DNA from: Pseudomonas triclosanedens
Lineage (GTDB): Bacteria; Pseudomonadota; Gammaproteobacteria; Pseudomonadales; Pseudomonadaceae
NCBI RefSeq assembly: GCF_026686735.1
Contig: NZ_CP113432.1
Span: 2,046,001 to 2,110,000 of the forward strand
Length of the DNA: 64,000 bases
Direction: 5' to 3'
The translations under genes were made by a program, and so were the position numbers. Numbering within the stretch: position 1 is the first letter of the stretch; each line of letters begins with the position of its first letter. Below the pieces are notes generated by a model. The model was not told the origin of the DNA. It worked only from the letters and a program-made list of their open reading frames with translations, and ran no database searches. This document shows positions 2,617 to 15,039 of the stretch, piece after piece.

Positions 2617-4059
2617 ATGACCGAAGTAGAAGCCAAAAAGCCGCAGGAAAGCTTGCAGGACCGCCTCAACCAGGTGGTCGACCTGCTGCACAAGCACAAG
2701 CTGGTGGAAGATCTGACTCATCGTCAGGAAGGCCAGCATCACGATCTCGTTGAAAATCTGGTGCACCGCCAGAACCTTGCCGAACTGCAGCGCAAGCTTG
2801 AAGAGCTGCACCCGGCAGACATCGCCCATATCCTCGAATCGCTGCCTCTGGATGACCGTTTGACAGTCTGGCAGTTGGTAAAGGCCGAGCGCGACGGCGA
2901 TATCCTCCTCGAAGTATCCGACGCCGTACGGGAAACCCTGATCGCCGACATGGACGATCACGAAATTCTCGCCGCCGCCAAGGAGATGGATGCCGACGAG
3001 CTGGCCGACCTGGCTCCGGAGTTGCCGCGCGACGTAGTCCATGAGCTGATGGAAAGCCTCGATGCGCAGCAGCGCGAGCGAGTGCGCTCGGCGCTGTCCT
3101 ATGAGGAGGATCAGGTCGGTGCGTTGATGGACTTCGAGATGGTTACCATCCGCGACGACGTTAGCCTGGAAGTGGTGCTGCGCTACCTGCGTCGCCTCAA
3201 GGAGCTGCCCGGTCATACTGACAAGCTGTTCGTGGTCGACTACGACGGTGTGCTCAAGGGTGTGTTGCCGATCAAGCGCCTGCTGGTCAATGATCCTGAC
3301 AAGGACGTGGCCGAAGTCATGGCCACGGATCCGGTGACCTTCACTCCGGACGAGGACGGTTACGACGCCGCCCAGGCCTTCGAGCGCTACGACTTGATTT
3401 CTGCGCCCGTAGTGGACAAGAACGGCAAGCTCATCGGTCGTCTGACCATCGACGAGATGGTCGACCTTATCCGCGAGGAGAGCGAGACCGAAGTGCTCAA
3501 CATGGCCGGTCTGCGGGAGGAGGAAGATATCTTTGCCTCAGTCTGGAAGTCCGTGCGAAACCGTTGGGCTTGGCTGGCGACCAACCTGATCACCGCCTTC
3601 ATCGCTTCGCGGGTCATCGGCCTGTTCGAAGGCTCGATCGAGAAGCTGGTGGCTCTCGCAGCGCTGATGCCCATTGTGGCAGGCATTGGCGGTAACTCCG
3701 GCAATCAGACTATCACCATGATCGTGCGCGCGATGGCGCTGGATCAGGTGCAGGTCAACAGCGCCAACCGCCTGCTGCGCAAGGAGCTTGGCGTGGCGCT
3801 GGTGAACGGCCTGGTGTGGGGCGGGGTGATCGGCCTGGTTGCCTTCTACCTTTACGGCAACTGGGAGCTGGGCGCAGTGATGACCGGTGCGATGACCCTA
3901 AACCTGCTGCTGGCGGCGTTGATGGGCGTGCTGATCCCAATGACGCTGTTGCGCCTGGGGCGCGACCCGGCAATGGGCTCCAGTGTGATGATTACCGCTA
4001 TGACCGATAGCGGTGGTTTCTTCATCTTCCTCGGGCTGGCTACGTTGTTCCTGATGTAG
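2617..4059 (+). CDS. mgtE: Magnesium transporter MgtE
   Basis: Inner-membrane Mg2+ channel that closes when cytosolic Mg2+ binds its regulatory domains. An N-terminal superhelical MgtE_N domain (about residues 40-145) is followed by two CBS domains (about 150-275), a connecting helix and a five-helix membrane domain from about residue 320. The pore segment GIGGNSGNQT is present. The ATG at 2617 is preferred over the upstream GTG at 2605 because GGGGGTGGAG sits 6 bases before it and MTEVEAKKPQ matches P. aeruginosa MgtE. The gene is monocistronic with its own terminator. Full length, 480 residues. Confidence 0.95.
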   Translation: MTEVEAKKPQESLQDRLNQVVDLLHKHKLVEDLTHRQEGQHHDLVENLVHRQNLAELQRKLEELHPADIAHILESLPLDDRLTVWQLVKAERDGDILLEVSDAVRETLIADMDDHEILAAAKEMDADELADLAPELPRDVVHELMESLDAQQRERVRSALSYEEDQVGALMDFEMVTIRDDVSLEVVLRYLRRLKELPGHTDKLFVVDYDGVLKGVLPIKRLLVNDPDKDVAEVMATDPVTFTPDEDGYDAAQAFERYDLISAPVVDKNGKLIGRLTIDEMVDLIREESETEVLNMAGLREEEDIFASVWKSVRNRWAWLATNLITAFIASRVIGLFEGSIEKLVALAALMPIVAGIGGNSGNQTITMIVRAMALDQVQVNSANRLLRKELGVALVNGLVWGGVIGLVAFYLYGNWELGAVMTGAMTLNLLLAALMGVLIPMTLLRLGRDPAMGSSVMITAMTDSGGFFIFLGLATLFLM

Positions 4060-6133: not shown

Positions 6134-6210
6134 GTCCCGGTAGCTCAATTGGATAGAGCGTCCCCCTCCTAAGGGGAAGGTTGGAGGTTCGACCCCTCTC
6201 CGGGACACCA
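6134..6210 (+). tRNA. tRNA-Arg (anticodon CCU)
   Basis: Acceptor GTCCCGG pairs with CCGGGAC, followed by A and an encoded CCA. The anticodon arm TCCCC-CTCCTAA-GGGGA gives CCU, reading AGG. 77 bases. Confidence 0.96.
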
Positions 6211-6217
6211 GCATGCC

Positions 6218-6244
6218 AAGGTCCGCATCAGCGGGCCTTTTTTC
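6218..6244 (+). terminator. Rho-independent terminator of tRNA-Arg(CCU)
   Basis: Stem AAGGTCCGC (6218-6226), loop ATCA, GCGGGCCTT (6231-6239, one G-T pair), then a T tract. Confidence 0.8.
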
Positions 6245-6247
6245 GTT

Positions 6248-7318
6248 TCAGGGGGCATAGGTCACCCGGTTCCTGCCATTGTGCTTCGAGTCGTACAGCG
6301 CCCGGTCGGCCTTGATCAGCATCTGGCTTAGCGTGCTGTCCACGGTCAGGTGCGCGAGTCCCAGGCTGATGGTGACTGCTGGCTTTCCGGGTAGCGCGGC
6401 GGTGGCGCTGCGCAGTCTTTCCATGCGTACCTGGGCCTCCTCGGCTGTCATTCCCCAGAGAAAGATGCCGAACTCTTCTCCTCCGAGGCGGGCGATCTCG
6501 AATTCGCCCAGCTCACTCTCGATCTTCTGCGCAACGCGAGTCAGCACCTCGTCGCCGATGTCGTGGCCGTAAGCGTCGTTTACCCGTTTGAAATGATCTA
6601 TATCGACCATTGCCAGGTAGCGCTCGGTGCTGGTGTCCTCGTTCAGCCTGCGTGTGACCCGGGTCATGAATGAGCGGCGGTTGGGGATGCCGGTGAGTGC
6701 GTCGAGGTAAGCCTGGTCCAGCAACAGCCGCGCCATCGCATAGTTGTACAGTTTGGCGTTGTGCAGGTGGTGGAAGATGTAGACCGACAGCGCGCTGATG
6801 AACAGCGGGTAGCAGACCAGCAGGCTGCGGCGCTCGTCAAAGTCGGGGACATCGCCAAGCAACGGATTGAGTAGAACCCAGGTCACCGCCAGAACCGAGA
6901 AGAACGCCGGCCGGCTGAGCGGCATCGCTGTGGCGCTGTAGAGCACGGTCGAGGCGGCGATCACCAGCCAGGCGGGACGAAGGCTATTGGGCAGCCCTTC
7001 GATCACCATGCGCGCGCCCAGTCCGAAAGTGATGACGAACAACAGGTTGATCACATAGAAGTGCCGTGCCTTGCGGGTCAGGGCCGCAAGGGCGGCGAGG
7101 GCGGCGAAGACCGCGAGGTAGAGCACCGAGATGTAGCTGAAACCCTGGCCGGCCTGGAAGCTGACGATCAGGTCGAGCAGGAACCACATACAGATGCTGA
7201 CGTAGAGCACCAGCATGCTGAAGCTGTGAAGCCGCTCGAAATCGTGCTGGAGGAACTCGGTTCGCAGCTCGTTCGAAATGCGCTGCTTCAGTACTTCGGA
7301 TTCGATCGTTTTGAACAT
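6248..7318 (-). CDS. Membrane diguanylate cyclase (GGDEF), last gene of the nfr-type operon
   Basis: Makes c-di-GMP from two GTP at the inner membrane. Six predicted membrane helices occupy about residues 30-205, followed by a GGDEF domain with an intact GGEEF signature at residues 279-283, so it should be catalytically active. The RxxD inhibitory site that normally sits five residues before GGDEF is absent (LGEF instead), suggesting no product inhibition. The ATG at 7318 (MFKTIESE) is chosen because the helices start soon after it. The frame is open to 7396. It lies 105 bases after the DUF4434 gene, downstream of a c-di-GMP-binding synthase (NfrB). Confidence 0.9.
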   Translation of the reverse strand: MFKTIESEVLKQRISNELRTEFLQHDFERLHSFSMLVLYVSICMWFLLDLIVSFQAGQGFSYISVLYLAVFAALAALAALTRKARHFYVINLLFVITFGLGARMVIEGLPNSLRPAWLVIAASTVLYSATAMPLSRPAFFSVLAVTWVLLNPLLGDVPDFDERRSLLVCYPLFISALSVYIFHHLHNAKLYNYAMARLLLDQAYLDALTGIPNRRSFMTRVTRRLNEDTSTERYLAMVDIDHFKRVNDAYGHDIGDEVLTRVAQKIESELGEFEIARLGGEEFGIFLWGMTAEEAQVRMERLRSATAALPGKPAVTISLGLAHLTVDSTLSQMLIKADRALYDSKHNGRNRVTYAP

Positions 7319-7423
7319 GAACCGCCCTGTGCGAGTGTGGGATCGCTCGCGCGACAATAGCCGAACTCGTGTACCCCGCGCGACGCGTCGTCGCACGCGC
7401 GCGCAGGGAAGGCACGACCGAGT

Positions 7424-8290
7424 TCAGGGCGTGGCTCGGGCTCGCTGATTGTCCAGCAGGATCTTGCCCCAGGGACGATAGCGCAAGGCGAATACCGCGC
7501 TGGCATGGCAGCCGGTCGACACGCTCGATGGCGTGGCCGGTTCGGCGCGGAATGGTTGGCCGGCTGTGCTGGTCTGGCGGAACGCCTCGCGCACGATGCC
7601 CACAGAGCAGGGCAGGGCGTTGGCATAGGCCTGGCGCACCAGCGGCGGCAGCGTGCCGGTGCCGGAGCCATCCTGCCACCAGACCTGAATGCCCTGTGCG
7701 GCGATTCCGCCGAGCCAGTCGGCATAGATCTGCGGCGCCAGCTTGCCGCCGCTGAAGGCGCTCAGTTGCAGCGGCGCGTCCAGTTGGCGGGCGAAGTCCC
7801 TGAGTTGGCGCTGCAGCGCCCGGCGGCGTTCGCTGTCCTGGAAGTGCCAGTCGTCCAGCTCCATTGGCAGGTACCAGGCGCTTACCGGCAGTTTCCAGTG
7901 TTCGCGCAGCCGCCGCTGCTGGCTGAGCGAACGGCTCAACTGATGCTGCCAATAGCTTTCCAGGCCGGGGGTGTCCAGCTCGCCCTGGCGCTGGTAATAG
8001 GCCGGGTCCATGTACAGGCCGAGCACCAGTTGCAAGCCCTGGGCCTGGGCACTTTTCAACGACTGCGCGAGCCAGCCGTCCGGGCCGCCGAAGTCGGAGT
8101 CGCCATAGGCGGTCCATTGCACGATGACTGTCTTCGCGCCCTGCGCCGCGCTGGCTTTCCACAGCGCCTGCCATTGTGCGGGAGTGAGTGCGGCGTCCAC
8201 GTTCAGCGGTTGGTAGAACAGGCGCTCGTCGGCCTGGGCCGGGAGCGCGATGACGAACAACAGGGCGAGGGCGACCAGCAGGCGGCGCAT
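7424..8290 (-). CDS. Periplasmic DUF4434 protein (YbcH-like, putative glycoside hydrolase fold)
   Basis: 288 residues with a clear signal peptide (MRRLLVALALLFVIALPAQA, cut near 20) and a DUF4434 domain: FYQPLNVDAALTPAQW at the start, then VIVQWTAYGDSDFGG, LVLGLYMDP, and an acidic MELDDWHF stretch that could be catalytic. DUF4434 proteins are predicted TIM-barrel hydrolases. The start overlaps the nfrA stop by one base (TGATG). E. coli has the DUF4434 gene ybcH next to nfrA. By analogy it would trim or release the Nfr glycan in the periplasm; this is inference. Confidence 0.85.
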   Translation of the reverse strand: MRRLLVALALLFVIALPAQADERLFYQPLNVDAALTPAQWQALWKASAAQGAKTVIVQWTAYGDSDFGGPDGWLAQSLKSAQAQGLQLVLGLYMDPAYYQRQGELDTPGLESYWQHQLSRSLSQQRRLREHWKLPVSAWYLPMELDDWHFQDSERRRALQRQLRDFARQLDAPLQLSAFSGGKLAPQIYADWLGGIAAQGIQVWWQDGSGTGTLPPLVRQAYANALPCSVGIVREAFRQTSTAGQPFRAEPATPSSVSTGCHASAVFALRYRPWGKILLDNQRARATP

Positions 8291-11200
8291 CAGAAGTTCA
8301 CCTCCAGGCCGACCAGCCAGCCATTGGCCTTCTCGTAAAGGTTGCCGGCCAGGCCCACCTGATACTCGGTGCGCACGGTAACGTGGGCGCGATAGGCGTT
8401 GTAACGGTCGTCACCATACCAGTACTGCCAGCGCAGGCCGACACCGCTGCGCAGGTCCTGGCGCCAGTCGTTGCCCGGGTCCTGGGTGGAAAACTCGCCG
8501 AAGCCGTACGGCATGAACGTCTGAGGCGTCGATGTGGGCAGCTTCCAGGCGTGGCCCTGCTGATAGCGCGATACCCACTGGTGGTCGCCGGCATGGGTCC
8601 ACCAGGCGTAGTCGAGGTAGAGGAAGCGCTCGCCCCAGTGGCTTTCGTCCACGCGCCAGTCGTTGCGGTACTCGCCCTGGTCAAGAAAGGAGGCCGTAGC
8701 GCGCAGCAGGAAGTCGGTGGAGGTCCGTCCGTCGCGCTTGTGATCGCGGATGCCTTCGTTGACCTTGTCGGGGGACAGCAGGTCGTGGAGGTGCAGGCCG
8801 TCCCAGCCTTCGTCCAGGGAGTTCTGCTTGTACAGCTCGCTGTACAGGTTGAGGTTGTAGTCGCTCAGGGGCTTGTAGCGCAGGCCCAGGCCGGTGGCGA
8901 CGTAGCGCCCGTAGCGGTCGCGCTCGTCGCCGCCGACCAGCGCGCGGCCATAGACCGACAGGCTGGTGCCGTCGCGGGTTGGTTCATCGCCAAGGGCATG
9001 GTCCCAGATGGCCATCTGGACGTTCTGCGACTGTGCGCGGCGGCGGCTGCCGCTATGGAGAGTACCGTCGTCCTGCAGGCGGCTGAAGTCGTTGGTCGAG
9101 ACGCCAGCGGGCGACCAGGTACTGGCGATGGTCAGGTTGTCACGCTGGGAGAGGACCTGATGTGCCCGGCGCTGGCGAAAACGCCGGGCTTCAAGGCTGC
9201 CATAGTCATCGTCGCCGGCGACCGGGTTCTGCTCCAGGTCGATGACTCTGCGCAACTCGCGGCGCGCGGCAAAGCTGTCTTCGGCCTCGTCGTAGCGCCA
9301 GGCCAGGGTTTCGCCCAGGCGGTAGTCCTCGGGGTAGTCGCGGGTGGCTCGCTCCAGATAGGGGATCGACGTGCGGCGCTCCTCCGGGGTGTCGGTACCG
9401 GCCAGGCGCATGCCGTAGTCGGCACGGAAGCGCGGGTTGTTCGGTTCGAGGCGCACCGCCTCGGCCAGCCATGCCTTGTTCTGCTCGCGGTCGCCGGCTT
9501 TCTGCGCACTTGCCGCGGCATTGTAGAAGTGCTGGCCATTGGGCTCGTGCGCCAGCGCCTGGCGGTGCCGGGCCAGGGCCTCGGCATAGTCGCCACGGGC
9601 ATCGGCGATGGTGGCACCGAGCGCCCAGTCATCCGCGCTGTTCTTGCTTGCCTGTTGCCAGTAGCGCTCGGCTGCCGCGTTGTCGTCGGTGAGCAGCGCC
9701 GCGCGGCTGGCGGTCAGGCGGGCGTTGTCGTTGAGCTGGCTGGCGGGCAGCGTGTCGAAGATGCGCAGGGCGCCAGCCGGATCGCCCGCCGCTTCCAGCG
9801 CGTAGGCCAGCGGGAGCTGGCTGTCCCGGTCACCTTGGGCGACTGCCGCCTGGTAATACACCACCGCTTCACCGGGGCGCGCCGGCATGGCGCAGCGGCC
9901 AAGGGCGCGCAGCTCGCCGGGGCTGCTGGGGGCTGGGCTGAGATAGCGTTGCAGCGCGTCACACTGGCCGGCTTCGGCGAGACGGCCGAGCAACTGTCCG
10001 CGTGTACCCGGGCCGGCCCTGGCCAGCAGCGACTCGATACGCGTGACGTTGAGCGGCGTGTCGCTGCGGGCGTGGATGCCGGCCAGGCGCTCGATCAGCG
10101 CGGGCGGAAGGTTGCCGCCGCGCCGGTCGTAGGCGCCTTCCAGCAGTTGCCGGGCGTGCTCGTTGCGACCGGCGGAGAGGGCCAGGTAACTAGCCTGGTC
10201 CAATGCCTTGAGATCGCCGGTCTGCCGGTAGCGTTGTTCCCACAGCACCGCCGCCTCGCCGGTGCGGCCTCGGGATTGCAGCAGTTCGGCACGCTGGCGG
10301 ACAGTCTCCGGCGTCTGCGGCTGGCGTGCCAACCAGGCCAGCGCCAGGTCGCTGCGGCCCTGGGCGCGCCAGGTGTCGATCAGTTGTGCGCGGCGGCGGG
10401 CATCCCACGGCTCGGGTAGCCGGGTGTTCTCCAGCAGGTCTGTGGCGTTCAGGCGCTGGGCCAGTACCAGCCAGGTCTGCGGGTCATCCTGGGGCTTGCA
10501 CTGGCGGAGCCTGCGCAGTGCTTCGTCCTGGTCATGGCGCGAAAGCCATTCGGCGGTTTCCAGGCATGGGCGCTCCAACTCATCGCTGAGCTTGCCCACG
10601 AGCGGGACATCGTCGCTGTGCCGCGCCAGTTCCAGCAGTCGCGCCTGTTGTTTCGGATCGCGCTGATCCTGCTCCGGCAGCCCCTGCATCCAGCGCTTGG
10701 CAACCTCGGTATGGTCCACCGCGATGGCGCGGTCGATGAGCGCCAACCGCGCCTGACGTGCGGAGGCCGGGTCGGGAGCCTGCAGCAGCAGTTGCTCCAG
10801 TGGTTTCTCGTCCAGGCGCTGGGCATAGGCGTTGGCCAGCCGTCGCCAGTCGTCCTTGCTGAGTTGTCGGCTGGCTGCCAGCGGGGCGAGCTGGGCGATG
10901 GTGGTGTCCCAGTCGCGCAGTTGTTCGGCCCAGTTGGCGCGAGCTTCGCGCAGTACGCGTTCGTCGTTGCCGTGCGGCACCGTACCCAGCCACTCCAGGG
11001 CCTTGGCCGCACCCTGGGTCTGGCCCAGTTTGAGGCTGTAGGCTTGCCATAGCCGCACGCGCTGGTTGACGTCGCTGGTGTGCGCCAGCCACTGGTTGAC
11101 CTGGGCTTCGGGCGGTGGGCCGTTCTCGATCAGGTCCATGCGTAGCTCGGCCAACGCGTTAGCACCTTCCTCGGTGCCGGCCAGCGCCCGGGCTTCCTTC

Positions 11201-11466
11201 TCGGCGTCATCGTAGCGCTGCTGCCTGGCCAGCGCCTGCACCAGCAGGGCCCGGGCCTCGTTGTTGTTGGGCACGCGGCCGAGCAGGTGGCGCATCAGCC
11301 GTTCCACCTCCGCCCAGTTGTTCTTCCTGGCTTCCTTGTAGCCCTTGTCGAGGAAGGGATAGCTGCGGAAGCGCTGGAACTCGGTGAGTTGCTCGGTGGC
11401 ATACAGCGTGGGGCTTGCAAGGGTTGCCAGCACCAGGCTCAAGACGAGAGGTTGTTGCAGTTTCAC
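8290..11466 (-). CDS. nfrA: NfrA-type outer membrane protein, TPR plus beta-barrel (phage N4 receptor family)
   Basis: 1058 residues. A signal peptide (MKLQQPLVLSLVLATLASP..., cut near residue 23) precedes many TPR-like helical repeats through about residue 750. A C-terminal Tyr/Trp-rich region from about 790 alternates like a membrane barrel and ends in phenylalanine (GLEVNF), the usual outer-membrane barrel signal. The layout resembles PgaA/BcsC exopolysaccharide exporters and E. coli NfrA. The start is GTG at 11466 with GGGAGG upstream, and it overlaps the nfrB stop by four bases. Role: outer-membrane passage or display of the polymer made by NfrB. Confidence 0.88.
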   Translation of the reverse strand: MKLQQPLVLSLVLATLASPTLYATEQLTEFQRFRSYPFLDKGYKEARKNNWAEVERLMRHLLGRVPNNNEARALLVQALARQQRYDDAEKEARALAGTEEGANALAELRMDLIENGPPPEAQVNQWLAHTSDVNQRVRLWQAYSLKLGQTQGAAKALEWLGTVPHGNDERVLREARANWAEQLRDWDTTIAQLAPLAASRQLSKDDWRRLANAYAQRLDEKPLEQLLLQAPDPASARQARLALIDRAIAVDHTEVAKRWMQGLPEQDQRDPKQQARLLELARHSDDVPLVGKLSDELERPCLETAEWLSRHDQDEALRRLRQCKPQDDPQTWLVLAQRLNATDLLENTRLPEPWDARRRAQLIDTWRAQGRSDLALAWLARQPQTPETVRQRAELLQSRGRTGEAAVLWEQRYRQTGDLKALDQASYLALSAGRNEHARQLLEGAYDRRGGNLPPALIERLAGIHARSDTPLNVTRIESLLARAGPGTRGQLLGRLAEAGQCDALQRYLSPAPSSPGELRALGRCAMPARPGEAVVYYQAAVAQGDRDSQLPLAYALEAAGDPAGALRIFDTLPASQLNDNARLTASRAALLTDDNAAAERYWQQASKNSADDWALGATIADARGDYAEALARHRQALAHEPNGQHFYNAAASAQKAGDREQNKAWLAEAVRLEPNNPRFRADYGMRLAGTDTPEERRTSIPYLERATRDYPEDYRLGETLAWRYDEAEDSFAARRELRRVIDLEQNPVAGDDDYGSLEARRFRQRRAHQVLSQRDNLTIASTWSPAGVSTNDFSRLQDDGTLHSGSRRRAQSQNVQMAIWDHALGDEPTRDGTSLSVYGRALVGGDERDRYGRYVATGLGLRYKPLSDYNLNLYSELYKQNSLDEGWDGLHLHDLLSPDKVNEGIRDHKRDGRTSTDFLLRATASFLDQGEYRNDWRVDESHWGERFLYLDYAWWTHAGDHQWVSRYQQGHAWKLPTSTPQTFMPYGFGEFSTQDPGNDWRQDLRSGVGLRWQYWYGDDRYNAYRAHVTVRTEYQVGLAGNLYEKANGWLVGLEVNF

Positions 11467-13637
11467 GCGGCCTCCCGGGCGATGCGATAGGCCTCATGCT
11501 GTTCGCTGGCCTGTTCCTCCAGGGCGCCGTCGAGCACTTCCTGGGTAATCATGCCGCGCTTGACCAGATGCTCGCCCAGCGAGTCCTGTTCGGGGTCGAA
11601 GTCGATCAGGGCCTGGTTGAACAGGGTCGACGGCACCTTGCCGCGCACCTGCAGCAAGGTGCCGAACAGCACCAGGTGGCCGCAGATGCGCTCCATCAGT
11701 GCGTCATCGCCCTGATGCCGCTTGAGGATGTCGAGGATGGTGCGGGTTTCCTCACTGTGGTGGCGTCCGCCGTACCAGTAGCGCAAGCCCAGGGTCACGC
11801 GTCCCTGTGGCGCCAGGCGGCCGCGTACCGGGCGCTGGAGCTGGCGGCTGATGGCGCCGAGGGAGACCTGGCTGATCTGCTGCTCGCTGGCGAGGATCAG
11901 GACGTCGCCGTCGACCGCCACCGGCAGCACGGCATAGCGCAGCGCCAGTTTGCGCGGCAGGGCCTCGATCAGTTTCGGGTCGAGGGTGAAGGGGTTGAGC
12001 GGTGCCCATTCCTCGTCCAGCTCCTCGGCCAGGGCGGCGACCAGTTGGGTGCTGCTGATCAACCCGCGCAGCAGCAGTTCGCGGCCGAGGCGGCGGCGCA
12101 CCGGGTTGGTCAGCGCGGCTTGCAACTGCTCTTCGCTGATCAACCCCTGCTCCTTCAGGCGCTGGCCCAGCGGCGTGCGCTGCGGGCCGGCGAGGGCGGG
12201 GAACTCATGGGTGGTCTTGTCCCAGGCCACGCGCCGCGAATCGCCCATTTCCATTACCTGCCGCAACGCACGCAGATTGGCGAAGAAGTTGACGAAGTTG
12301 CTCCACATCATCCGCGGCGCCGACAGCAGCCCCTCGAAGATGCCGTAGAAGCGGGTGACGAACCAGAAGCGCTGGAACAGCCGGTTGAGCAGCATGAAAC
12401 CGTTGAGATACAGCAGCACCACCAGCAACTGGCTGCCTTCGAGGATCGAGGGAAAGTGCCAGGCATTGGGCGACAGCCTGGTGATCAGCCACATGGTGAT
12501 CAGCACCAGGAACAGCAGGTTGACCAGGAAGCTCAGCAGATAGGCGATCAGCCCCCGGCGGTCGCGCCAGAGGAAATAGTTGAGCATGGCCTTGCGGCTC
12601 CAGCCCAGGTTTCGCGTGCCCTGGAAGACGATGCCGGTGATCCATCGCGACTTCTGCCGGATCGCATGCTGCCAGGTTCGCGGGAAGTGTTCGCGCACGC
12701 AGATGACCTGGGAGAAGCGCCTGTCCATGCCTGGCACCCAGGTGGACTTCAGCGCCAGTTTCGGGTCGCTGACCGAGTAGCGGGCGAAGATGCACTTCAT
12801 GCCTTTCTGTTTCAGGCGGAAGCCGATGTCGTAGTCCTCGGTGAGGCTTTGCACGTCGAAGGCGATGCCGTCGCCGTCTTCCAGCAGCGCAGCGATGGCA
12901 CGGCGGCTGAAGCAGGTGCCGACCCCTGCGCTGGGTACCTGGCCGGTCAGCGCCTCGCGCACCGGAACGTCCTTGCCGTGGTTCTCGGCGAACTCGTCGA
13001 CATAATGGCCGGCGGTGAAACCGGTCCACTCCGGGGCGTAGGGGTACACCGGAATCTGGATCAGGTCCTTGGCCGGCAGCAGGTAGTTGAACAGCCGCAG
13101 TTCCAGGGGCGAGATCACGTCCTCGGCGTCGTGGAGGATGAAGCCGGCGAACTCCACTTTCGCATCGGCTTCGAAACGCAGAATGGCGTCGATGATGTTG
13201 TTCAGGCAGTCGGCCTTGCTGGTGGGGCCGGGGCGGGCGCAGACCACCTTGTGCACGTTGGGGTAATGCAGGCAGACGGCATCCACGTCCGCCTGGGTCT
13301 GCGGATCGTTGGGATAGGTGCCGACGAATATCTGGTAGTTCTCGTAATCCAGGGTGGAGGCGGCCAGGCGCGCCATCTCGCCCACCACGCCGACCTCGTT
13401 CCAGGCCGGCACCATGATCGCCAGCGGCTTCTCCGGCTCGGCGAACAGGCGTTCCTCGTCGGCGCGGTCGAACCTGCGGTAGATGCGGAAGACGCGGACC
13501 AGCCGGCGGCCCCAGTAGACGAGGTCGATGAACAGGTCGTCCAGGCCGAGCAGGAACATCAGCGCGGCCAGGGCGATTGCCAGGTACTTCAGCGCGAACA
13601 GGACATAGGCAAGGATGTCGACCAGTTCGAGACTCAT
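11463..13637 (-). CDS. nfrB: NfrB-type processive glycosyltransferase with MshEN-like c-di-GMP domains
   Basis: 724-residue inner-membrane GT2 synthase. One or two N-terminal helices are followed by a GT2 domain with the DAED metal-binding motif (about 169-172), TEDYD base region (about 266) and QKSRW product-binding motif (about 327). Further membrane helices span about 360-440. The C-terminal third has repeats of the MshEN type (RLGRELLLRGLISSTQLVAA near 511, a similar segment just before it, and SLGEHLVKRGMITQ near the end), a fold that binds c-di-GMP. In E. coli, NfrB is reported to be activated by c-di-GMP and to need WecB-made UDP-ManNAc. The ATG overlaps the wecB stop (ATGA). Confidence 0.9.
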   Translation of the reverse strand: MSLELVDILAYVLFALKYLAIALAALMFLLGLDDLFIDLVYWGRRLVRVFRIYRRFDRADEERLFAEPEKPLAIMVPAWNEVGVVGEMARLAASTLDYENYQIFVGTYPNDPQTQADVDAVCLHYPNVHKVVCARPGPTSKADCLNNIIDAILRFEADAKVEFAGFILHDAEDVISPLELRLFNYLLPAKDLIQIPVYPYAPEWTGFTAGHYVDEFAENHGKDVPVREALTGQVPSAGVGTCFSRRAIAALLEDGDGIAFDVQSLTEDYDIGFRLKQKGMKCIFARYSVSDPKLALKSTWVPGMDRRFSQVICVREHFPRTWQHAIRQKSRWITGIVFQGTRNLGWSRKAMLNYFLWRDRRGLIAYLLSFLVNLLFLVLITMWLITRLSPNAWHFPSILEGSQLLVVLLYLNGFMLLNRLFQRFWFVTRFYGIFEGLLSAPRMMWSNFVNFFANLRALRQVMEMGDSRRVAWDKTTHEFPALAGPQRTPLGQRLKEQGLISEEQLQAALTNPVRRRLGRELLLRGLISSTQLVAALAEELDEEWAPLNPFTLDPKLIEALPRKLALRYAVLPVAVDGDVLILASEQQISQVSLGAISRQLQRPVRGRLAPQGRVTLGLRYWYGGRHHSEETRTILDILKRHQGDDALMERICGHLVLFGTLLQVRGKVPSTLFNQALIDFDPEQDSLGEHLVKRGMITQEVLDGALEEQASEQHEAYRIAREAA

Positions 13638-14788
13638 TCGACCTCGCTATCCGTGCGGTTTTCTCCGAACCAGGACAGCAGCCGGGCGACGATCTTCTCG
13701 CTGGCGTGGCCGTCGCCATAGGGGCTGAATACCCGGCTCATCTGCTCGTAGACCTCATCGTCGTTGAGCAGATGGCTGGCCTCGCTGACGATGCGGGCGG
13801 TGTTCGTGCCTACCAGCACCACGGTGCCGCCTTCCAGCACAGCCGGCCGCTCGGTGACACGGCGCAGCACCAGCAGCGGCTTGCCCAGCGCCGGCGCTTC
13901 TTCCTGGATGCCACCGGAGTCGGTGAGGATGAAGTAGGCGCGGTCCATCAGCCAGACGAAGTTCTGGTAGTCCTGCGGGGCGATCAGATGGATGTTGGGT
14001 TTGTCCGACAGCATGCCGTAGACCGCCTGCTGGACCTGCGGGTTGAGGTGCACCGGGTAGACGAAGTCCACATCGGGGAAGCGCTTCGCCAGTTCGGCGA
14101 GGGCCAGGCAGATGCGTTCGAACCCCTTGCCGAAGTTCTCCCGCCGGTGGCCGGTTATCAGCACCAGGCGGCGGTCGTTGGCGAACTGCGCCAGCGGAGA
14201 GTCGGCTGCGGGCGTCCAGCGCGTCTCGTGCAGGTGCTCGCGCATCCACAGCAGCGCGTCGATCACCGTGTTGCCGGTGACTTCGATGTGGTCGATGCTC
14301 ACGCCTTCGCGCAGCAGATTGTCGCGGGCTCTCCTGGTCGGCGGGAAGTGCAGGTCGGCGATCACTGCGGTGAGCCGGCGGTTGGCCTCTTCCGGCCAGG
14401 GTTGGCGGATGTTGCCGGTGCGCAGTCCGGCCTCGACGTGGGCCACCGGAATCTGTCGGTGGAAGGCGGTGAGGGCGGCGATGAAACTGGTCGTGGTATC
14501 GCCGTGGACCAGTACGATGTCCGGGCGATGCCGGTCGTAACTGTCATCCAGGCGCGACATCATCTGCAGCGCCAGGCCGTTGAGCGTCTGGCCCTGGGTC
14601 ATCACGTCGAGGTCCTCGTCCACCTCCAGTTCGAAGGAGTCCAGCACTTGCTGTAGCATCTCGCGATGCTGGCCGGTGGAGCAGATGCGCAGCTCGATTT
14701 CCGGGGTGCGGCGCAGTACTCGCGCAAGAGGGGCCATCTTGATCGCCTCGGGGCGTGTCCCGAAGACCATAGTGACTTTGTATCTCAT
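13634..14788 (-). CDS. wecB: UDP-N-acetylglucosamine 2-epimerase
   Basis: Interconverts UDP-GlcNAc and UDP-ManNAc in the cytoplasm. It has the family signature GTRPEAIKMAPLARVL near the start, then VHGDTTT, VEAGLRTG, ITGHRRENFG, YPVHLNP and LTDSGGIQEEAP, all at the expected order and spacing. About 384 residues, full length. The second of two adjacent ATGs (14788) is preferred because GGAG lies five bases upstream; the first would leave only two. First gene of the operon, directly upstream of the NfrB synthase, so it likely supplies UDP-ManNAc to it. Confidence 0.93.
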   Translation of the reverse strand: MRYKVTMVFGTRPEAIKMAPLARVLRRTPEIELRICSTGQHREMLQQVLDSFELEVDEDLDVMTQGQTLNGLALQMMSRLDDSYDRHRPDIVLVHGDTTTSFIAALTAFHRQIPVAHVEAGLRTGNIRQPWPEEANRRLTAVIADLHFPPTRRARDNLLREGVSIDHIEVTGNTVIDALLWMREHLHETRWTPAADSPLAQFANDRRLVLITGHRRENFGKGFERICLALAELAKRFPDVDFVYPVHLNPQVQQAVYGMLSDKPNIHLIAPQDYQNFVWLMDRAYFILTDSGGIQEEAPALGKPLLVLRRVTERPAVLEGGTVVLVGTNTARIVSEASHLLNDDEVYEQMSRVFSPYGDGHASEKIVARLLSWFGENRTDSEVE

Positions 14789-15039
14789 CATTGCTCCGTG
14801 GGCGTCCCTTGTGGGGGCGCGTCAGGTGTTCCGTGTGGGAATTCACCTTGGGCAATGAAAGTCGCTGATGCCCGGACTGTCCAGCACGATGCCCCGGTGC
14901 CAGTGATCCAGGTCAGGTTGGTTGACCTTTATGGAATTTGCCGCGACGCAGCCATGCCTTCCGCGGCCAAAGGGCTGGCGCCGGTTTGCCGGCATCGCCC
15001 GAAAATGTTGATGATTATTTCTGATGGGTGGTCCAGCGG

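Follow-up and report, generated by a model that had tools for sequence, protein, structure and literature searches.

The closest described system is that of Escherichia coli, which comprises nfrBA-ybcH together with WecB and DgcJ. Two 2021 studies report that E. coli NfrB binds c-di-GMP, that it has glycosyltransferase activity and needs the residues of its GT domain, and that infection by N4 requires both WecB and DgcJ (PMC8669469, PMC8669472). In the account of Sellner et al., most MshEN substitutions in E. coli were without effect on N4; G491L and G519S did have an effect (PMC8669472). Sellner et al. 2021 also describe nfrA-nfrB-wecB clusters in Achromobacter (PMC8669472), and Junkermeier and Hengge 2021 report that wecB lies next to nfrB in genomes that have no other WecB, e.g., P. 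soli SJ10, and that a GGDEF gene is tied to the nfr operon in most pseudomonads, potentially as a fourth gene (PMC8669469). In a 2022 commentary, both the role and the chemical nature of the polymer made by Nfr are described as still elusive (PMC9544554). Among the papers listed in our literature search, judged by titles and abstract beginnings and with most subscription papers lying outside it, none was an experimental study of the nfr operon in a Pseudomonas.

We have analysed a window of 64,000 nucleotides from Pseudomonas triclosanedens (position 1 below is its first letter), whose genome is a single contig of 6,245,384 bases and 100% complete. Five genes run on the same strand from 14791 to 6248:

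13634..14791, minus strand: wecB, non-hydrolysing UDP-GlcNAc 2-epimerase for UDP-ManNAc supply (TIGR00236)
11463..13637, minus strand: nfrB, inner-membrane GT2 synthase with C-terminal MshEN (NF008411, GT2 families)
8290..11466, minus strand: nfrA-type gene, TPR plus outer-membrane barrel, presumed exporter (NfrA_C PF13283, TPR_19)
7424..8290, minus strand: DUF4434/YbcH-type gene, modelled TIM barrel, candidate glycosidase (NF007404)
6248..7318, minus strand: GGDEF diguanylate cyclase with a six-helix membrane domain (PF00990, 121 bits; helices in the predicted model)

The wecB/nfrB and nfrB/nfrA junctions are overlaps of 4 bases each, the nfrA/DUF4434 junction is an overlap of 1 base, and the cyclase gene follows after a gap of 105 bases. 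These coordinates confirm the one-strand, overlapping order proposed in an earlier sequence-only reading of the window, which had placed the start of wecB at the second ATG (14788); the longer frame starts at 14791. The comparison was made with 80 loci, the best 80 of 181 NfrB matches, and this sample therefore leans to close relatives; among the matches listed, the closest NfrB relatives belong to the P. nitroreducens group (91-92%). Sequences with settable ends were kept, i.e., 69 for wecB, 77 for nfrA and 74 for DUF4434 of the 80, and 64 of 65 for the cyclase. Counting only pairs of genes with settable ends, the wecB/nfrB overlap of 4 bases is kept in 66 of 69 relatives, the nfrB/nfrA overlap of 4 bases in 76 of 77, and the nfrA/DUF4434 overlap of 1 base in 70 of 71, so near-constant a pattern that the gene packing in the window is not due to chance. 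Across the family, 15 of 148 sampled genomes gave an NfrB match at E 1e-100 (one match partial), indicating that the system is patchy.

NfrB passes NF008411 (1235 bits against a cut-off of 1170) and is 54.2% identical to E. coli NfrB (the E. coli K-12 comparison proteins were taken from NC_000913). Its GT2 catalytic motifs and C-terminal MshEN domain, both claimed in the sequence-only reading, were recovered at the following positions:

12834..12842, minus strand: TED catalytic motif, NfrB residues 266-268, identical in 81 of 81 sequences
12642..12656, minus strand: QKSRW motif, NfrB residues 328-332, four positions checked and identical in 81 of 81
11748..12179, minus strand: MshEN c-di-GMP domain, about NfrB residues 487-630 (PF05157 and NF053729)

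The MshEN profile PF05157 matches residues 545-626 with 38.2 bits (cut-off 23.1), NF053729, a c-di-GMP motif model, matches two stretches with 61.6 bits (cut-off 38), and a sequence search with this region retrieves MshE (5htl) and PilF chains. Ten positions that have been mutated in E. coli NfrB (D169, D267, W330, L490, G491, L505, L509, L518, G519 and L537; drawn from PMC8669469 and PMC8669472) are all the same in the window, and nine of the ten are identical in 81 of 81 sequences, the position of L509 being I in 61 of the 81. These results support the Nfr assignment of the operon and suggest that NfrB is likely under c-di-GMP control. The TPR-plus-barrel layout ascribed earlier to the next protein is borne out by matches to TPR_19 and to NfrA_C PF13283 (83.9 bits, cut-off 25). 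This protein is 25.1% identical to E. coli NfrA and falls below the cut-off of NCBIfam NF007302 (1041 against 1223 bits), so we class it as NfrA-type by domain and gene order rather than as that equivalog.

The locus thus shares with E. coli nfrBA-ybcH, WecB and DgcJ the GT and MshEN residues of NfrB, an NfrA-type protein, a YbcH-type protein, WecB and a cyclase. It differs in that wecB is part of the ECA operon in E. coli but adjoins nfrBA in the window, and in that DgcJ has a periplasmic dCache domain whereas the cyclase of the window has six predicted membrane helices and a gene beside nfrBA (PMC8669472). In the nfr operons of other pseudomonads (P. soli SJ10), wecB is likewise linked to nfrB and a GGDEF gene follows the ybcH-type gene (PMC8669469); no difference in kind from these was found, and the window locus is a further member. 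From the earlier interpretation, profiles, conserved residues and the single epimerase of the genome support the Nfr identity, a likely control by c-di-GMP and a precursor supply encoded within the operon, but the gene layout is not new, because Junkermeier and Hengge 2021 had already reported the wecB linkage and the linked GGDEF gene (PMC8669469). What is new here is the comparative backing of UDP-ManNAc dependence, together with what is predicted below for the cyclase and for the DUF4434 protein.

We consider it highly probable that the locus is an Nfr (NGR-type) exopolysaccharide operon, with a local cyclase, for a c-di-GMP-activated ManNAc polymer that is made, exported, and trimmed or otherwise handled. 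WecB would provide UDP-ManNAc, which NfrB would polymerise at the inner membrane once c-di-GMP occupies its MshEN domain; the NfrA-type protein would export the chain, the DUF4434 protein would trim or handle it in the periplasm, and the linked membrane cyclase would provide local c-di-GMP. In this model the substrate, the polymer, its activation and local signalling would follow the published E. coli experiments, and the putative glycosidase role of the DUF4434 protein would follow from its predicted fold. Several observations count against the model: 14 of 79 evaluable operons are without the cyclase, one locus (L068) has nfrB with a broken copy of its sole epimerase gene, and the NfrA-type protein scores under its cut-off. 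The lack of effect on N4 of most MshEN substitutions in E. coli, the dispensability of E. coli ybcH for N4 infection and the patchy spread of NfrB weigh in the same direction.

The DUF4434 protein passes NF007404 (365.9 against 344 bits) and is 32.6% identical to E. coli YbcH; its secretion was called from the N-terminus as judged by eye. The predicted model is a TIM barrel (pLDDT 87.9), in which two glutamates occupy the following codons:

7859-7861, minus strand: DUF4434 E144, kept in 75 of 75 sequences and in E. coli YbcH
7586-7588, minus strand: DUF4434 E235, kept in 75 of 75 sequences and in E. coli YbcH

In glycosidases of clan GH-A, strand 4 and strand 7 usually each end in such a glutamate. 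By strand numbering counted by hand, E144 is located close to where strand 4 (136-146) ends and E235 terminates strand 7 (230-235), so that the predicted model has the GH-A-type arrangement of a TIM barrel with glutamates ending these two strands. Among the 50 VIA matches listed, nearly all carry glycosidase names, the exceptions being 8uaj (an ene-reductase) and 7vkz (a glucosyltransferase). The C-terminal domain of PgaB (4p7n) ranks with the nearest described systems. The protein could instead be a non-catalytic scaffold, a possibility that we take seriously, at somewhat less than an even chance. E. coli YbcH has been described as a putative scaffold, and N4 infection does not need it (PMC8669469). 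Foldseek matches of the model are scattered over many TIM barrels, including several non-glycosidases, with TM-scores of 0.29-0.50, and E144 and E235 are two among about 80 invariant columns of the family, so that their invariance alone is weak evidence. It is their placement at the strand ends in the model, together with the names of the VIA matches, that argues against a scaffold, and the DUF4434 protein is perhaps a glycosidase. The family has no match by sequence to a solved structure (E up to 1) and no PHROG match at 0.1. The conserved glutamate pair offers a direct handle on the role of this protein.

The cyclase carries its active site at the following position:

6470..6484, minus strand: GGEEF active site of the cyclase, present in 65 of 65 aligned sequences

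An RxxD upstream of GGDEF is the position of the product-inhibition motif in diguanylate cyclases. No RxxD is present upstream of GGEEF in any of the 65 aligned cyclases, and that of the window thus lacks the mark of product-inhibited diguanylate cyclases. P. aeruginosa ImcA (PDB 8wcn) aligns to the cyclase model over 346 of 356 ImcA residues; this structural alignment is nearly whole-length, yet the identity is 22%, and in a sequence profile only cyclase residues 161-352 match ImcA whereas the membrane domain does not. ImcA is described as controlled by IsmP (PMC10904736). No firm Pfam family was found for the membrane domain in 19 members, the best match being DUF2070 (4 of 19, E 0.0038).

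The linked cyclase would make a simple case for local c-di-GMP signalling. It could instead be a bystander, with NfrB sensing the global c-di-GMP pool and the linkage merely co-expressing a general cyclase, which we regard as unlikely. Of 79 evaluable operons (L050 ends before the cyclase), 65 contain the cyclase gene and 14 do not, so operons persist without it, and the claim that the operon brings its own cyclase holds for the genome of the window but not as a general rule. Its spacing from the DUF4434 gene also varies, from -23 to +347 bases across 59 loci. The bystander role is opposed by the 17-base overlap of the cyclase gene with the DUF4434 gene in 19 of these 59 loci, and by the distribution of the membrane domain, which has one match per genome in five genomes possessing the cyclase and was not found in 12 of 13 searched genomes with a cyclase-less operon. 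Moreover, in the genome of L082 the cyclase gene lies beside a second wecB with the same promoter-like element (below) ahead, and E. coli DgcJ acts on NfrB through direct interaction (PMC8669469). A cyclase that supplies NfrB locally is therefore the reading we retain, as a prediction.

Two further cyclase arrangements were seen. In P. alkylphenolica (L124, 8491-10819), the nfr promoter-like element precedes a wecB-cyclase pair, and nfrB, nfrA and the DUF4434 gene are missing from this arrangement. At the place of the operon cyclase in another locus (L026, 16211-16570), there is a short frame with GGEEF that looks like a decayed cyclase.

WecB scores 476 bits against the curated TIGR00236 cut-off of 210, and it is the sole Epimerase_2 match in a profile search of the whole genome; the precursor supply attributed to the operon is accordingly its own, as the single epimerase of the genome sits within it. 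Among 25 genomes of the GTDB genus, the window's own included, NfrB is found in 15, each time with wecB adjoining; for 12 of them a search at E 1e-20 gives no match other than the operon wecB (part of these genomes are also counted among the 80 loci). Of the best 80 of the 181 loci, 69 have an intact wecB adjoining nfrB and 9 have none, while the gene is deleted internally in one (L037) and broken in one (L068). All 10 genomes whose operon has wecB absent or deleted carry a wecBC pair elsewhere. The distant WecB is full-length (413-419 bits, 54-56% identical to operon WecB), and a gene for UDP-ManNAc dehydrogenase adjoins it in 10 of 10 (identified by NCBIfam name for L087 only). Among genomes with an intact linked wecB, a second WecB match of at least 350 bits was found in 11 of 68 (L079 left out). 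A WecB outside the operon is associated with an absent or defective operon copy (10 of 11 against 11 of 68, P = 2.3e-6, Fisher's exact test, kinship ignored). The nine wecB-less loci have wecC genes at least 96.7% identical to that of L087 and may represent a single loss, so the pattern amounts to two or three events, with L068 against it. In this locus the operon wecB is in pieces (2735-3637) with nfrB present, and an epimerase profile search found no other match in the genome, which runs counter to the rule of a wecBC pair elsewhere.

The comparative pattern supports UDP-ManNAc dependence of the system. That the polymer is not ManNAc-based, and that WecB serves some other use of UDP-ManNAc and is merely co-transcribed, gains from the wecB dependence here being drawn from comparison and from the second strong WecB match in those 11 of 68 genomes, but is very unlikely in view of the retained wecB/nfrB overlap, the wecBC pair elsewhere in 10 of 10 genomes with wecB absent or deleted (the broken L068 copy being the exception), and the wecB dependence demonstrated in E. 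coli (PMC8669469, PMC8669472). An operon with every predicted part and the only epimerase of its genome would be a cleaner place for testing Nfr than E. coli, because E. coli WecB also serves ECA whereas the sole epimerase here is that of the operon.

N4 gp65 is described as NfrA-binding. As a query we used the protein named "160 kDa protein" in the phage record (tail sheath and receptor binding protein in RefSeq), which has matches in 118 phage-collection records (duplicates counted); 13 of these records bear a Pseudomonas name. At least 80% of the query is covered in 36 records, among which the Pseudomonas phages are inbricus (54% identity, 100% covered, two records) and Arace01 (44%, 83%). 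Among the matches listed in a search of titles and abstract beginnings, no receptor study of inbricus was found. A study of P. aeruginosa variants resisting an N4-like phage mentions NfrB once (PMC6467409). The P. aeruginosa phage DEV is described as using LptD as receptor instead (PMC12892993). With these gp65 relatives in Pseudomonas phages, the operon is a plausible candidate for a phage receptor system. It is rather unlikely that all of the following would hold jointly: an Nfr-dedicated, ImcA-like six-helix cyclase without product inhibition that passes c-di-GMP only to NfrB and is lost genome-wide with the operon copy; a YbcH-type protein that represents a new glycosidase family and acts in the periplasm on the ManNAc polymer; and inbricus-like, N4-like phages using both the glycan and NfrA.

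Several elements flank or lie between the genes:

14855..14883, minus strand: promoter-like element TGGACA-N17-TTTCAT upstream of wecB, conserved in Pseudomonas nfr operons
14909-14927: palindrome GGTCA-N7-TGACC, between wecB and a divergent LysR gene
7374-7408: long GC-rich hairpin between the DUF4434 and cyclase genes
6218..6239, no strand assigned: terminator-like hairpin just past the cyclase stop, with a T-run on the plus strand only
6134-6210, plus strand: tRNA-Arg (CCT), just past the operon end, beyond the cyclase

By raw count over 79 sequences (the window and 78 loci), 77 have TGGACA no more than 350 bases ahead of the operon's first gene, and 53 have the full form TGGACA-N17-TT[GT][CT]AT; TGGACA-N17-TTKYAT has one match in the entire genome. 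The element stays ahead of nfrB in all nine wecB-less loci. Strict FliA-, RpoN- and sigma-70-like patterns were each found in 0 of 78 upstream regions, leaving FliA control of the E. coli type without support here.

The palindrome was considered as an nfr site and set aside, as it tracks the divergent LysR gene instead: it is present in the window and in 8 of 8 loci with that gene, and in none of the other 70. It has one further match elsewhere in the genome and fits the T-N11-A LysR box, and a site for LysR is the likelier reading. The hairpin at 7374-7408 was also rejected as a notable element, being ordinary for its composition against shuffles (z -1.23). Between 6000 and 15200 there is one terminator-like site and shuffles averaged 5.0, so the terminator-like hairpin is of little weight. 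The divergent LysR gene upstream of the operon is of the aminoethylphosphonate type (TIGR03339, 400 bits), and a GNAT gene also lies beyond the cyclase end of the operon.
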